From: Sulfurimonas sp. endosymbiont of Alviniconcha boucheti
GTDB lineage: Bacteria > Campylobacterota > Campylobacteria > Campylobacterales > Sulfurimonadaceae
Direction of reading: 5' to 3'
Assembly (NCBI GenBank): GCA_021766785.1
Contig: JAICBP010000079.1
Coordinates: 827 to 34,532 of the forward strand
DNA length: 33,706 nucleotides
Numbering within the stretch: the stretch's first letter is position 1; the number at the start of each line of letters is the position of its first letter. A program made the translations under genes and the position numbers. Below the pieces are notes generated by a model, which was not told the origin of the DNA, made no database searches, and was given only the letters and a program-made list of their open reading frames with translations. Positions 18,777-25,715 of the stretch are shown one piece after another.

Positions 18777-19520
18777 TTATTCATCTGTGCTATTACTATC
18801 TACAACAGAGTTACGTGAAACGACACTCTTTGTATCTGGAATAAGATAGCCATACCAACTTGCAGTACCATCACCTTCAAACCACTCTTTATACCAAGGT
18901 GTGTTTGCTCTATTTATTTCATTCCAGACTATCCAAGGCTCTAGTTTTTTTGCTCTGTAATAAGCTGCAGACTTAGGTTTATCTATACGATTATAAAGGT
19001 CAGCTATAGTTTTATTAAGTACAGCATCTGCTATATAAAGATTTGTTGCAATTGTATCAACAATACTATAGTACATAGAATGAGGATAGTTTGTTTTGAA
19101 TTTTTCTGCTTCTATAATGGCTTCTTGAATGAGAACTTGATCACGGCGTGGATTTGGTAAAGCCATATACTTCGCTTTTATTTTTAAAAACTCAGTAAAC
19201 TCTTTTTCATTTGCATTTGCATAGTGTTTAATGTACTCATTTAAAAAATCTTCACTTAAACGATACTCTTTATAGTACATATGAGCAGTAGCTAGAATCA
19301 TAGTTGCTTCAGGTAAAAGTGGAGAGCCTATATGTTCACCTTGAAGAGAGTAGTAGTAGTCATCAGCTTTATCTATGTTTCCTTTAGAGATAGACTCAAT
19401 AATCTTTGAGTACCAGTAAATTGCTGGCTTATTATACTCATCTAAATTTTTAGTACAGGAGCTTAAGAGTAGTGTTAAAGTAAGAAAAGTGAGTAAAGTT
19501 TTTCTATATAGCTTTTTCAA
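18777..19520 (-). CDS. bamD: outer-membrane assembly lipoprotein BamD
   Basis: A 247-residue lipoprotein of the beta-barrel assembly machine. The signal peptide ends in the lipobox LLLSSC with C22 as lipidated residue. TPR-like helical repeats follow (YWYSKIIESISKGNIDKADDYY; LLPEATMILATAHMYYKEYRLSEDFLNEYI; IADLYNRIDKPKSAAYYRAK), matching the BamD/ComL pattern. A Ser/Asp-rich C-terminal tail is lineage-specific. The start is TTG at 19520 with AGGA at six bases; no in-frame ATG gives a signal peptide. It is followed 19 bases later by lon. Confidence 0.88.
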   Translation of the reverse strand: MKKLYRKTLLTFLTLTLLLSSCTKNLDEYNKPAIYWYSKIIESISKGNIDKADDYYYSLQGEHIGSPLLPEATMILATAHMYYKEYRLSEDFLNEYIKHYANANEKEFTEFLKIKAKYMALPNPRRDQVLIQEAIIEAEKFKTNYPHSMYYSIVDTIATNLYIADAVLNKTIADLYNRIDKPKSAAYYRAKKLEPWIVWNEINRANTPWYKEWFEGDGTASWYGYLIPDTKSVVSRNSVVDSNSTDE

Positions 19521-19558: not shown

Positions 19559-19659
19559 AAAAGAACTATATCTCTCTTTAAATTATTCAAATTTAGCTTT
19601 CATTATGAGCAAATTAAGACATTTGTATTTAAAAAGAGATTAATTATTATATTTAATTA

Positions 19660-19668
19660 TGTTATAAT
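19660..19668 (+). promoter_or_regulatory. extended -10 promoter of the pilus/adhesin operon
   Basis: TGTTATAAT, a perfect extended -10 element, placing the start near 19675. The leader then holds AGGAG at 19690-19694. No convincing -35 box is seen. Confidence 0.6.
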
Positions 19669-19700
19669 ACACCTATCAAGGTAAACAACAGGAGTATATT

Positions 19701-22700
19701 ATAAGAAAATTAAGAGAAATATTTGTTAGGAGTATTCTTCTTTTCTCCTTAGCCTCCTCTTCACTTTTTGCTGTAGTAGGTCATAAGACAAATTATTTAA
19801 ATCCTTTTCAAGCTGTTTTTAATCCTAGTCCAAATGTTATATATGGTGACTATGCTTCCATAGCTTCATCTGTAGAGTGTATTGAGAGCGTAAATGCTAC
19901 TACCTGTGATGATGGATATAGTGGTTATTTATTTAATGCGACAACCATGTATAAAAATGATGTAAATATTTCGGCAATCCCATTAAACTCTTCTACAGAA
20001 ACATTACAGTTACCAACTGATATTGATGGAAAAGATATATTATTTGCAGGTCTATATTGGCAAGGCAATATTGTTGGTGAAGATGCAGCAAATTATAATA
20101 CACAATTTAGTAACATCAATAAGCATGGTGGAATACTAGGACGAGATAAAGTTATTATGATAGATGCCAAAGGAAAAAAACATACTATAACTGCAGATAA
20201 AAATAGTACTTGGTTTTATGATTTTTGGGGAAATGGTATAGGATATGCTGGTGGGCATAGATCTCTTTATCAAGGCTATAAAGATGTAACAGCCATCCTT
20301 CAAAACTCCTATACTAAAGGAGTAATAAATAGTTACACAGTTGGAAATATTAAAGCAAGTGCTGGAAAAGACTACCCTACATACTTTTGGGGAGATCAAA
20401 ATACGAGTTTTAATGGCATAAGTATAGGTTTTTGGGCTAACTGGCAACTCATAGTTGTTTATAGTCATAGTAATCTAGCATCACTAACACCAAAACCAAA
20501 ACCAAAAAATATTACTATTTTCCATGGCTTTGAGCCTCTTATACCTCTAAAAGATGAAGTGAAATCAATTACTATCAACCTGTCAGGATTTGTAACACCT
20601 AAACAGGCTCCAGTAAATGCAAAAATGCTTTTTTATGGTTCAGGAGGAGAAGCGAAACTTGACTACGATAGTTTAGAGATTCAGAATAAGAAAACAGCGG
20701 GCTTCGTTCCTCTCTATAACTCTCCAGCAAATCCTCTTTCTGGTGCTTTTAATGGTTCTATATCTAGGTTTGGAACACGTGTAAATCCAAATATCACCTA
20801 CTATCCAGGAACAGATAGTGATGAGTTTAATATCTCTAATATGATGGATACAGAACAATCTACGACTGTACTTAAACTCAGCACAAAAAAGGTAAATGGA
20901 ACAGGAGATCAGTTTTTACCAGGTCTTGTCGCTTTTTCGACTGATGTTTATGAACCAAGTTTCTGTTATGATTATGCTTATAGAGAGTCTGATAAGTTTT
21001 TTACTGAAGATAACAATGGTTCACAAAATCCTAGAATTATTGGTTCTGTAACTCCTCAAAAGCCTATAACCATAAATATATATTTAAAAAGTCTTATCGA
21101 TTCTAATGTTCTTGTCAAAGATATGAAACTTACAGTACAAGATATTAATACAACACAAGCAAAATATATAAGAGACTCAACACTTTTAACTCTCAACTCA
21201 GGTATTAAAAATCCTATTTTTGATAGTTCCATTGGAAGTGTATCAGATAGCTCTATTAACGATATTCCCATAGGTACACTCAATGCAAAAGACCATTTTT
21301 CTGCTTCGTATGATTTGTTGCCTACCGTAGGAACACAAGATCTTAACATGACACTTAACGCAAAGGTTTCATACACTTTAGAGACAACTAGTATGTCTAT
21401 TCCCTACTCTTTAAATCTCTCTTCTGATATTCCTATGTGCACATCTACTCCCAACAAATATACATCAGAAAAAGGTAACTTTAACATGGTTCATGAGCAC
21501 TACTATAATTATGATACAGTTACTCCAACCAAAAGATACTACAACCTTCCAACACAGATTACAAATAGGGTTGGACATTTTAAGATTATCTCAATTGATG
21601 AGAATGAGACGCTTACTCCTAGATCTACTATGGTAGCTGTTGAGATGATAGATGCAAGTGCTTTTCACTCATCTCTTCTCTCTTGTCAAGAAATATCAAG
21701 CTCCATTAGTCCAAGATCCTGGATGCTGTTTGATGCTGTAGAATCAGTGAAATTTGATAAAACGACATTAAGTAATCCTTTAAAATTTTATACAAATGCA
21801 AAAGAAAATACTGCATTTAGGGTATCACAAATGTTAGACAATAATGGCAACTTACAAGTCATAGAGCATGTCTCTCCCACCACATGGCGATTGAAAAATT
21901 TTCCAACATATACAACTACACAACAGTGTACAGATAATAGTAACTCTATCTTTAATGTATGTGGAGATACTGGTAATGGACCTAATAATACAGGTATGAA
22001 TAAAACAGAACTTGCATCATGCATGGAGTGTATTTATGGCTTGAAGACAAAATTTACATGTTCAAGAGACAACTTTGCTATCCGACCAAACTCATTCTCT
22101 TTTGTATTGAATGACACTAACCAGAGTAGTGCACCTAAACATAAACTCATAGACAATGTTAGCTCCACAAAACCGAGTATAGATCTTGCAACAGGCTATG
22201 AGTACAATATAGATATTAATGCGACAAATTATATAGATAACAATGCTTCAGATGGCTACACTAAGCTCTTTAACACAGTTAATACTCAAGACTCTATGAC
22301 TTATATTTGGTCTCAAAAAACTCCTTTAGCTACTTGTAATGATGCAAATAAAACTCTTTCATTTCATATATTTAATGGGAGTGTAGATTTAGATCTTCCT
22401 CCTTTTGATCAAGTTGGACAATACCAACTTAATCTTTTAGATACAAGCTGGACAGCAGTAGATCATAATCCAGTATTTATGGGACATCATACTAGTGCAA
22501 ACGCCATCTATCCTGATGGTACTCCTATGTTTGAGACTGCCTCCTTAGATTGTAAAGTAAACTCAGCTTTTACACAAGATGAAAACTCTAGTGAACTTAG
22601 TGGCTGCAATATCTCTTCAGAGCATAATAGTAGTTCTGGAGTTATCACCTCAAATATAGTAGCTATTTTTCACCCTTACAAACTTGATGTGACCTCATTA

Positions 22701-23741
22701 ATTGCTTCACACGGTAGTGATAAAAATATTACCTTTCCAACTGCTGTTAGTAGTAGTGCATGGATTTATATGAGTGATATTGCTCATGAGAATAATATCT
22801 CCTTAAACTTTATAGGAGATATAGTAGCCAAAGGCTTTAATAATACAAACAACAGTAATTTTGTAGATGGATGCTATGCAAAACCACTTACTCTTTCACT
22901 CAAAAGTGATCTTATAAATGCAAATCCTGATTATAAGTATCATTTTGTTAGTAGAGAAGTAAATAGTAGTGTTATCTATGACTCTTGGGATGCAAATAAC
23001 TCTTCACAAGAACTACTTAACCTCACTACTGCAAACTTTCCAAAAGATGCGAATGGTTCACTCTCTATGACTCTTCACTACAACTATGAGCATAATACTT
23101 CAGTTGCTCTCAACCCTCAGAAAATAAATCTAGTTGGATTAGATGTAAGATGTACAAATGCAAGTGATTGTCAGATGAATGTTCTGCAAAGAAATAACTA
23201 TGAGAATAATCAAACAGTGAGTATTAATGCTCCATTAAGACACTTTTATGCAAAAGCATATACAGGTAAACAACGTTTTAATGTTCCAGCAGATAGTCCA
23301 TATAACGCAAAAATCTATTATCAGATATACTGTTTTGGAGATGGATGTAACACAAATCTACTGCCTAGTAAGGAACATATAAATGATATACGTTGGTATA
23401 GAAACAGATTGCATAATCCAAACCATGATGGAAATATTACTGCTATTTTTAAAAAAGGATCAGTAGGGAGGGTTATACTAACTAATGCGTTTATCAATAC
23501 AACAAATCCTGCAACTGTAAATTTACAATATGATAGTTCTAAAGGGTATCCATACATAAGCACTATGGAGATCAACGCATCAAACTGGTTAATTTATAAT
23601 CAAAATAATGAAAATGCAACATCTAACCAATTTCAGATAGAGTATAATAAGCTAGGAACAGGATACTCTGGAGAGCATGAAACCACTAGTGAAACAAGCA
23701 CTAGAGGTAATATCAAAACAAATAGGAAAACGATGTGGTAA
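19701..23741 (+). CDS. large secreted adhesin-like protein (MshQ/DUF6701-like), non-AUG start
   Basis: Predicted 1346-residue exported protein. The reading frame, open from a stop at 19665-19667, encodes a textbook signal peptide (RKLREIFVRSILLFSLASSS, then LFA and a likely cut) but has no ATG, GTG or TTG before 19947. AGGAG lies six bases before an ATA at 19701, which I take as start; ATT at 19698 is the alternative. Starting at ATG 19947 would delete the signal peptide. After it comes a domain with DILFAGLYWQGN, of a kind seen in large bacterial surface proteins, then Asn/Thr/Ser-rich beta regions with scattered cysteines. CSRDNFAIRPNSF near residue 787 resembles the opening of the DUF6701 domain of MSHA protein MshQ. 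It overlaps the first prepilin gene by seven bases. Likely role: pilus-associated adhesin; tentative. Confidence 0.7.
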   Translation: MRKLREIFVRSILLFSLASSSLFAVVGHKTNYLNPFQAVFNPSPNVIYGDYASIASSVECIESVNATTCDDGYSGYLFNATTMYKNDVNISAIPLNSSTETLQLPTDIDGKDILFAGLYWQGNIVGEDAANYNTQFSNINKHGGILGRDKVIMIDAKGKKHTITADKNSTWFYDFWGNGIGYAGGHRSLYQGYKDVTAILQNSYTKGVINSYTVGNIKASAGKDYPTYFWGDQNTSFNGISIGFWANWQLIVVYSHSNLASLTPKPKPKNITIFHGFEPLIPLKDEVKSITINLSGFVTPKQAPVNAKMLFYGSGGEAKLDYDSLEIQNKKTAGFVPLYNSPANPLSGAFNGSISRFGTRVNPNITYYPGTDSDEFNISNMMDTEQSTTVLKLSTKKVNGTGDQFLPGLVAFSTDVYEPSFCYDYAYRESDKFFTEDNNGSQNPRIIGSVTPQKPITINIYLKSLIDSNVLVKDMKLTVQDINTTQAKYIRDSTLLTLNSGIKNPIFDSSIGSVSDSSINDIPIGTLNAKDHFSASYDLLPTVGTQDLNMTLNAKVSYTLETTSMSIPYSLNLSSDIPMCTSTPNKYTSEKGNFNMVHEHYYNYDTVTPTKRYYNLPTQITNRVGHFKIISIDENETLTPRSTMVAVEMIDASAFHSSLLSCQEISSSISPRSWMLFDAVESVKFDKTTLSNPLKFYTNAKENTAFRVSQMLDNNGNLQVIEHVSPTTWRLKNFPTYTTTQQCTDNSNSIFNVCGDTGNGPNNTGMNKTELASCMECIYGLKTKFTCSRDNFAIRPNSFSFVLNDTNQSSAPKHKLIDNVSSTKPSIDLATGYEYNIDINATNYIDNNASDGYTKLFNTVNTQDSMTYIWSQKTPLATCNDANKTLSFHIFNGSVDLDLPPFDQVGQYQLNLLDTSWTAVDHNPVFMGHHTSANAIYPDGTPMFETASLDCKVNSAFTQDENSSELSGCNISSEHNSSSGVITSNIVAIFHPYKLDVTSLIASHGSDKNITFPTAVSSSAWIYMSDIAHENNISLNFIGDIVAKGFNNTNNSNFVDGCYAKPLTLSLKSDLINANPDYKYHFVSREVNSSVIYDSWDANNSSQELLNLTTANFPKDANGSLSMTLHYNYEHNTSVALNPQKINLVGLDVRCTNASDCQMNVLQRNNYENNQTVSINAPLRHFYAKAYTGKQRFNVPADSPYNAKIYYQIYCFGDGCNTNLLPSKEHINDIRWYRNRLHNPNHDGNITAIFKKGSVGRVILTNAFINTTNPATVNLQYDSSKGYPYISTMEINASNWLIYNQNNENATSNQFQIEYNKLGTGYSGEHETTSETSTRGNIKTNRKTMW

Positions 23742-24346
23742 AGAGAAACTCTCAAATGGCGTTTACAATGATAGAGCTTATATTTGCTATTGTCATTATT
23801 GCCATTACTGTCGTCTCTCTACCAATGATGATGCAAGTAAATACTAAAGGGATGGATAATAATCTTGCACAAGAGGCCATCTTTGCTGCATCAGTGGAAC
23901 TTATGCAAGCAACTACAGGCTATTGGGATGCTACCTCTATGAATGATATTGCATTAAGTAATTATTCAAGAGTAATCAATATAAGTGGAGATTGCAATAG
24001 CATAACAAAGCTCCGTCCTGGTCATATAGCACAGCCATTTCACAGAAGATGTATAGAAGACACTACAATTACATCTCCAAGCAATATTACAGGAAATAGT
24101 CTCTATAAAACTTTAAATGATCTTGAACATACCTCTCAAAAACTTTATATAGGAAATGCAAGTAGATCAGGATATAAAAATACAAACCTAACTATCTCTC
24201 TTAGTGTCTCTGTTGATGCAGATACAAACATTAAAATTTTAACAGCCACTGTAAAAGACCCAACAGATAATAATAAGATTGTAACTAAACTCTCTACTCA
24301 AAGTGCCAATGTTGGTGAACCCCAATATTATAAAAGGATGTTTTAG
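23735..24346 (+). CDS. type IV prepilin-like protein (MshD/PilV-like)
   Basis: A 203-residue minor pilin candidate. The leader MVKRNSQM is followed by AFTMIELIFAIVIIAITVVS: a class III prepilin signal with Ala instead of Gly at the cleavage site and the conserved Glu five residues after it. The AFTMIEL form is common in Campylobacterota. The globular part has a Cys pair (GDC ... RRC, about residues 88-109) that could form a disulfide. The GTG start at 23735 overlaps the adhesin-like gene and gives a positively charged leader; AGGA lies upstream. It is the first of three tightly overlapping prepilin genes. It would be cut by PilD, which is not in the window. Confidence 0.8.
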   Translation: MVKRNSQMAFTMIELIFAIVIIAITVVSLPMMMQVNTKGMDNNLAQEAIFAASVELMQATTGYWDATSMNDIALSNYSRVINISGDCNSITKLRPGHIAQPFHRRCIEDTTITSPSNITGNSLYKTLNDLEHTSQKLYIGNASRSGYKNTNLTISLSVSVDADTNIKILTATVKDPTDNNKIVTKLSTQSANVGEPQYYKRMF

Positions 24347-25275
24347 TGCTACGCCGATATGCTTTTACAATGATTGAACTCATTTTTGTTATTGTTGTTA
24401 TAGGCTTTTTAGCAAAGTTTGGAACAGAATTTTTAGCACAGGCCTATAATGGATTTATATTTTCAAAAATTAATAATGAACTACAGTCTAAAAGTGAAAG
24501 TGCGGTAGAACAGATAGCAGCAAGACTTCAATACAGAATAAAAACATCTATTATAGGAAGAGATCCTAACAATAATAATTTTAAATCTCTACCAAATATC
24601 ACAGTAGCAGACTCAAAAAAATATACTATACTAGAGTGGATTGGCATTGATAATGAAGGTTTTAGAGGAACCGTCACAACTGCTTTATGGAGTGGTATAA
24701 TAGATATAGATAAATCAACTGCCACATATCTAGTATCTCCAGAGACAAATACATCAGAGTGTAATGAGCTTATTAAGATACTCTCTTATGCTAGTGGTAC
24801 AGATATTAATAGCTCGGCAATTTATTTTATAGGTTCTACTACTGACATCAATGGATATGGCTGGGATGGTAATGCAATAACCACACAAAGCCTCACTATG
24901 CACCCTATTCAAACAGATGCAGATCCAACACACCTTATTCCAAGAAAAGGAGGCACTTTAAATAGTGCAAACACATTTTCAGGAGAAGATGTTTATGAGT
25001 ACTATCAACTCGCTTGGAGTGCCTATGCAATCGGAATTGATGATTATAATACTACAACAAAAATGGGAACACTAAAGCTTTGGTATGATTATCAACCATG
25101 GGATGGTGAAACATATAAAAACAGTGCTAAGTCTGTCACTCTTATGGAAAATGTAAGTACCTTTCGTTACAATGGGATAGGCTCTTTATTGAAAATTCAG
25201 GTCTGCACAAAATCAACATTTGGTACGATGGGTGAAGGAAACTATTCGATATGCAAAGAAAAAACAGTTTATTAA
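24346..25275 (+). CDS. type IV prepilin-like protein (MshO/PilW-like)
   Basis: A 309-residue minor pilin candidate with leader MLRRY and AFTMIELIFVIVVIGFLAKF, again Ala before the cleavage site and Glu at position 5 of the mature helix. Size and the helix-rich QSKSESAVEQIAARLQYRI after the membrane segment fit the larger PilW/MshO-type subunits. The GTG start shares one base with the previous stop (TAGTG) and AAGGA lies seven bases upstream, so translation is coupled. It has two late cysteines (CTKS ... CKEK, near 288-305). Confidence 0.8.
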   Translation: MLRRYAFTMIELIFVIVVIGFLAKFGTEFLAQAYNGFIFSKINNELQSKSESAVEQIAARLQYRIKTSIIGRDPNNNNFKSLPNITVADSKKYTILEWIGIDNEGFRGTVTTALWSGIIDIDKSTATYLVSPETNTSECNELIKILSYASGTDINSSAIYFIGSTTDINGYGWDGNAITTQSLTMHPIQTDADPTHLIPRKGGTLNSANTFSGEDVYEYYQLAWSAYAIGIDDYNTTTKMGTLKLWYDYQPWDGETYKNSAKSVTLMENVSTFRYNGIGSLLKIQVCTKSTFGTMGEGNYSICKEKTVY

Positions 25276-25715
25276 AGAAAAAAAATGGATTTGCTATGAT
25301 TATGGCAATTATAGTTATTGTTATCATCGGGACTATAATGGCATTATCTATTTCTCTTACATCACTCACAACTAAAAGGACAACTGATATTTATCTTTAC
25401 GAACAGGCATCACTCTATGCAAAAGTTGCGGCAGAGAGAGCACTCTTAAAAATTGCCAAAAATGATGTATCAATAAACCCTTGTGGATTTACAGGAGACA
25501 ACTATCAATTAGGTGGTATTTATGATGTCAATGTTTCCGTCAAATATGTCTATACTAACTTTCCTATAGGTTGTAATGCAGCGCAACAACTTACTACTAT
25601 TACAACACCTGAGCAGAATGGAACAGTTATGCTAGATATCTCTGTCAGTGTGAACAACAGTACAATAGATACAGAACCTATTCGTTATTTTAGAAGAACT
25701 CTTCAAAAATTATAA
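25251..25715 (+). CDS. prepilin-like protein lacking Glu5 (MshP/PilX-like)
   Basis: A 154-residue protein with leader MQRKNSLLKKKNG and FAMIMAIIVIVIIGTIMALS. The cleavage Gly is present but the usual Glu5 of the mature pilin is not, a feature of tip-type pseudopilins (MshP, PilX, GspK). The following KVAAERALLKIAKND is the standard amphipathic alpha-helix, and CGF ... IGC could form a disulfide. It overlaps the previous gene by 25 bases. It is the last gene of the block; hpf follows with its own promoter. Confidence 0.75.
   Translation: MQRKNSLLKKKNGFAMIMAIIVIVIIGTIMALSISLTSLTTKRTTDIYLYEQASLYAKVAAERALLKIAKNDVSINPCGFTGDNYQLGGIYDVNVSVKYVYTNFPIGCNAAQQLTTITTPEQNGTVMLDISVSVNNSTIDTEPIRYFRRTLQKL

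Follow-up and report, generated by a model that had tools for sequence, protein, structure and literature searches.

The window, i.e. the whole stretch of 33,706 nucleotides that was analyzed (C76:827-34532), belongs to the 2.24 Mb genome of a Sulfurimonas endosymbiont, a draft of 83 contigs that is 99.99% complete. On its plus strand, a large gene of 1,346 codons (19701..23741) encodes an apparently exported protein and is the first member of a syntenic cluster that continues with three pseudopilin-like genes on the same strand and a gene with an S30AE domain. The first pseudopilin-like gene (23735..24346) starts with GTG before the large gene has ended and has a weak N_methyl match below the cut-off, and its place in the gene order is kept in the relatives read. 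The second (24346..25275, also with a GTG start) is the only one of the three with a prepilin motif above the cut-off (TIGR02532), and the third (25251..25715) is a small gene with a weak GspK-like N-terminus, again below the cut-off; these two were assigned by synteny as well. N_methyl matches of two of the three genes were below the cut-off. A type IV pilus or MSHA-type minor pilin cluster, which would call for prepilin N-terminal motifs in these genes, was considered as a possible identity. The large protein itself matched neither Pfam (0 families) nor NCBIfam (0 families), and the best hits of a PDB profile search had E-values of 0.46 and 0.64. An MshQ/PilY1-like tip protein was considered and dropped, as no recognizable domain was found in the large protein. 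From its signal peptide and its pseudopilin neighbors, our guess is that it is surface- or pilus-associated. On the minus strand upstream, a YfiO/BamD-like gene (18777..19520) starts with TTG here and with ATG in two relatives (G082 and G060).

The 5' region of the large gene contains no ordinary start codon. After a TAA at 19665-19667 the frame runs for 93 codons without ATG, GTG or TTG, up to an ATG at 19947..19949, as the first-pass annotation had stated and as in-frame reading bore out. Within this stretch, a Shine-Dalgarno sequence AGGAG (19690..19694) is followed at six bases by an ATA (19701..19703), the start codon that was proposed, and translation from there opens with IRKLREIFVRSILLFSLASSSLFA-VV, i.e. 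a basic segment and then a hydrophobic stretch ending in SLFA. By eye, this was recognized as a Sec-like signal peptide of about 24 codons (IRKLREIFVRSILLFSLASSSLFA, 19701..19772), beyond which another 1,322 codons lead to the stop at 23741. An ATT at 19698 is only 3 nt from the AGGAG. A default gene caller would start at the ATG of 19947, where no SD-like motif was found upstream, and would lose 82 codons, those of the signal peptide among them, just as had been predicted. No canonical start with an open path was found elsewhere by eye; the ATG at 19659 runs directly into TTA TAA. The promoter that had been claimed fared less evenly: the extended -10-like element TGTTATAAT (19660..19668) lies in a block conserved with G082 (TATGYTATAAT), but a scan with -35/-10 consensus sequences did not flag it and found no more sites in total than in shuffled sequences. 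Counts of codons behind SD motifs were set aside, since of eight ATA codons observed against 3.4 expected, six were trivial, lying one codon before an ATG. At the base rate, the chance of finding no NTG across 82 coding codons is P ~0.05, and its absence would by itself be weak evidence, while homology upstream of 19947 would be strong evidence.

Such homology was found. While a first scan of genome contigs for relatives of the large protein came back empty, a genus search with its first 433 codons matched 55 of 135 genomes. The best match after the gene itself was in G082, a Sulfurimonas MAG, with 70% identity over these codons and 56% overall, and 84 codons upstream of 19947 align to it with 52 identities. 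The start region reads ATT ATA AGA AAA TTA AGA GAA ATA TTT GTT AGG in the window and ATT ATG GAA AAA ATC AAG CAA ATA TTT ATT AGA in G082, so that the ATA faces an ATG at the same site; in G082 an AGGGG stands in the place of the AGGAG, 6 nt before the ATG. The alignment continues into the DNA further upstream and takes in the extended -10. Four further orthologs (G027, G060, G114 and G105) have an ATG behind an SD-like purine stretch, while the start of the G146 ortholog lies beyond its contig end, and the remaining matched loci, whose relationship is more remote or whose N-termini differ, were left out of the codon comparison. The AUH start (AUH = AUA, AUU or AUC) is thus not conserved in relatives of the large gene, and ATA at this site is found in one genome only. 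The comparison with relatives that had been proposed as a check therefore points to a lineage-specific change from ATG to ATA in the window gene. Between the two codons that had been put forward, ATA is better placed than AUU, both by its spacing from the AGGAG (6 nt against 3 nt) and by its alignment with the ATG of G082.

A frameshifted or otherwise damaged gene was ruled out, as the 1,346 codons contain no stops or frame breaks. Compared with G082, dN/dS is 0.28 for the whole gene and 0.39 within codons 2-82, and dS (against the G082 locus, L061) climbs along 19701-23741 from 0.59 to 2.17, a steep rise which suggests a mosaic or recombined gene. Judged against G060, the large protein has accumulated 175 unique changes in its own lineage and 95 in that of G082; the last 345 residues account for 65 and 21 of these, respectively, and the first 82 residues for 6 and 6. 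The downstream pseudopilins have no such excess against G060 (62 in the own lineage vs 59 in G082), and a weaker own-lineage excess against G146 (73 vs 51) and G105 (77 vs 48). Relaxed constraint could account for the faster evolution on the own branch, and so could low expression or recombination. Taken together, these data agree with a gene that is expressed but more weakly constrained, and they would also leave room for a recent null mutation.

By searching a 0.70 Mb unmasked sample of the same genome, about one third of it including the window, and drawn non-randomly mostly from contigs C82 and C81, we found that the first ATG, GTG or TTG lies at least 80 codons in for two of the 521 coding-like ORFs with 100 or more codons, one of them the window gene. 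A survey set of 590 coding-like ORFs, each with 80 codons or more, included 217 with a homolog in the samples of G082, G060 or G044, and three of the 217 could be aligned over at least 80 codons before their first NTG is reached, namely the window gene, a YheT-like hydrolase and a ComEA-like gene. For G082 (179 with homologs), one case of at least 50 codons, riboflavin synthase, occurred among the matches listed, which were sorted by aligned length; there was none for G060 (208 with homologs), and one for G044 (130 with homologs, another family), which directly follows a stop and seems to be a broken frame. Together with an OmpA/TSP3-like gene and a MATE-family transporter, five genes with AUH starts were identified in the sampled third, and an SD-like motif was present at the ATA of the OmpA/TSP3-like gene, the ATT of the ComEA-like gene, the ATT of the YheT-like gene and the ATA of the MATE gene. 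No translation factors are among them. The resulting rate, 5 of 590 sampled ORFs (~0.8%), is a rough lower bound, because this approach misses any AUH start that has an NTG close by.

Certain of these starts extend far beyond the one genome. Matches to the MATE gene (minus strand, G000:C82:298542-299864; L078, L098) were found in 115 of 134 genomes, and in all 25 loci read (L111-L135) the first NTG comes only 22-31 codons inside the conserved protein, while an AUA or AUU stands behind an SD-like motif in every one of the 25; in G100, a stop lies directly 5' of the AUU. The MATE gene begins within the 3' end of the gene before it, which may therefore constrain the codon, and the stop of that gene reads TAATC or TAATT where TAATG would be expected. 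Re-initiation at the ATC or ATT of this motif is possible, and the start would be of AUH type in either case. The ComEA-like gene, which encodes an exported helix-hairpin-helix protein (plus strand, L106:15361-15945; L151-L165), has AUU or AUC at the start site in 11 of 15 loci, ATG in three and an unreadable site in one (L164); in seven of the 15 (L164 not counted), NTG is absent before codon 38 of the conserved part. The C-terminal part of this protein also matches ZorA/MotA-like profiles. Among 20 loci of the YheT-like gene, one has AUU (that of the present genome), one AUC and three AUA, with ATG or TTG in the others. The OmpA/TSP3-like gene resembles the window gene in that its own ATA stands against ATG or TTG in 14 of 14 other loci. 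The view of the codon at 19701 as an isolated oddity did not hold up, as AUH starts recur both in this genome and in the genus.

The cleanest test was provided by riboflavin synthase, because its N-terminal MFTGLI marks the start. With 128 of 134 genus genomes matched and 30 loci read, the start codon was TTG in 15, ATG in 11, ATT in three and ATC in one. A second set consisted of the best 80 of 583 relatives, split by identity rank and record title into 46 Sulfurimonas-like loci (ATG 24, TTG 15, ATT 7) and 34 others (ATG 24, GTG 10, no AUH). A few of the 46 fall outside the clade on the tree, hence the slightly different partition of the pooled set of 100 loci (L246-L355, duplicates removed), in which AUH starts occur in nine of 61 loci within the Sulfurimonas clade and in none of 39 outside it (Fisher p 0.011, a value that ignores the kinship of the loci). 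Start codons other than ATG, TTG, GTG, ATT and ATC were not found in these 100 loci. Outside the clade, riboflavin synthase starts with ATG or GTG, and never with TTG, among the other Campylobacterota read. The tree implies at least seven changes of start codon, at least five of them forced by supported branches.

As for the initiation machinery, the genome holds one GGGCTCATAACCC tRNA(CAT), and two other matches to the initiator-tRNA pattern turned out not to be tRNAs. An altered initiator tRNA was also discarded as a candidate, since the GGG/CCC anticodon stem is canonical in 38 of the 41 genus genomes searched, including the present one; the cause of any relaxed selection would then have to be sought in IF3 or in the 30S subunit. 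In IF3, whose gene infC has a TTG start here, a Ser is found where Thermus IF3 has an Arg, a position which we take to be R99 of Escherichia coli. A change of R99 to Leu in E. coli IF3 relaxes start selection. The Ser is thereby a candidate cause, although the IF3 of 5me0 likewise carries Ser at this position, so that Ser alone does not explain the situation in the genus. More broadly, we tentatively propose, at somewhat short of even chances, that Sulfurimonas ribosomes are relaxed at the third position of the start codon, and that AUU, AUC and AUA would serve the genus as routine starts and not as rare regulatory devices, with gains and losses that recur even in a gene of core biosynthesis.

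For the window gene, the most likely explanation, held with fair confidence, is that the ATA at 19701 is the real start codon of a large exported protein, derived from ATG in this lineage and tolerated through the use of AUH starts in the genus. A single G-to-A change would have turned ATG into ATA, and the change would be tolerated because Sulfurimonas and close kin repeatedly start with AUA, AUU or AUC. The AGGAG 6 nt upstream would position the ribosome on a short leader, of about 26 nt assuming that transcription begins some 7 nt past the -10, and the ordinary initiator tRNA(CAU), if this is the tRNA used, would pair with AUA by its first two bases. The product would be expected to begin with Met and to be exported, at a yield reduced by initiation at AUA. 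AUA starts operate at reduced yield in Staphylococcus aureus and Listeria, and reduced but real synthesis is accordingly to be expected from 19701, which would make it probably a working, if weak, start rather than the mark of a dead gene or a sequencing error.

The first-pass annotation had itself offered the latter two as alternatives, and both stay as rivals, made less likely by the intact gene and the habit of the genus. That the change from ATG to ATA was a recent loss-of-function or near-null mutation, with the operon deprived of its first product and the gene intact only through the youth of the mutation, is unlikely but the most serious of the rivals: the ATA occurs in this genome alone while the relatives have ATG, the protein has evolved faster on its own branch, mainly in the C-terminal part, and AUH starts strongly cut reporter yield. 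Set against this are 1,346 codons without stop or frameshift at a dN/dS of ~0.28, the strong SD that has been kept, and the other AUH-start genes in the same genome, some of them with AUH conserved genus-wide, from which it follows that AUH is evidently translated here. An error of sequencing or assembly, with G as the true base at 19703, is improbable. It would find room in a single draft genome of 83 contigs, but it would leave aside a second gene in that genome, the OmpA/TSP3-like one, with ATA against ATG or TTG in 14 of 14 other loci, as well as the AUH starts of other genes that are common to many independently assembled genomes, some of them in one contig.

The remaining two rivals concern the position of the start rather than its reality. 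Initiation at the ATT of 19698, one codon before the ATA, would be in keeping with the use of AUU at other genes of the genus, but with only 3 nt to the AGGAG, the ATG of G082 aligned to 19701 and an ATT just upstream of the ATG in G082 too, we regard it as a slight chance, lower still than that of an error. Least credible of all, to the point of near dismissal, is a start at the ATG of 19947 with the upstream stretch left untranslated; it is the first canonical in-frame start, but it has no SD-like motif and would discard the signal peptide together with 82 codons that are conserved in the orthologs.

If borne out by protein data, the genus-wide recurrence of AUH starts would be more notable than the single gene in the window. 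If such starts are ordinary in the genus, automatic annotation of Sulfurimonas genomes cuts short or overlooks proteins, and among these are exported ones whose signal peptide is lost. The genus would furthermore offer a natural comparative system for how third-base discrimination at the start codon works in bacteria, and since riboflavin synthase switches between ATG, TTG, ATT and ATC along a tree of related species, the cost in expression and its compensation, e.g. by SD strength, would be directly testable.

AUH starts as such are known in bacteria, and it is their breadth within one genus that appears unusual; among titles and abstracts of the open-licence literature, no AUH starts in Sulfurimonas or Campylobacterota were found. 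In E. coli, infC and pcnB have AUU starts that limit expression, whereas infC of the present genome has TTG. According to the account of S. aureus in PMC13009471, AUA starts there yield ~10-30% of AUG, those of infC and ccpN are accompanied by a strong SD, as in the window gene, and expression of citZ, ccpN and infC is reduced rather than abolished. The AUA of S. aureus citZ is described as confined to one strain lineage, much as the ATA of the window is confined to one genome, but the S. aureus starts were demonstrated by ribosome profiling and reporters, while that of the window is deduced from sequence (PMC13009471). For Listeria monocytogenes, rsbW is reported with single-base start changes to ATA or ATT, like that of the window gene, with start strength in the order ATG>ATA>ATT, although these changes, unlike the one in the window, arose under laboratory acid selection (PMC13068326). 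The same source gives 6 of 2,265 conserved Listeria genes (0.26%) with fixed non-canonical starts, to be set beside ~0.8% here (5 of 590, a rough lower bound) with the reservation that the methods differ (PMC13068326). Lastly, pncA (BBE22) of Borrelia burgdorferi is described as having an AUU start which, if ignored, leaves the annotated protein truncated, as would be the case here; unlike the window gene, it is a plasmid-borne enzyme gene whose start was proven by genetics and structure (PMC13398362).
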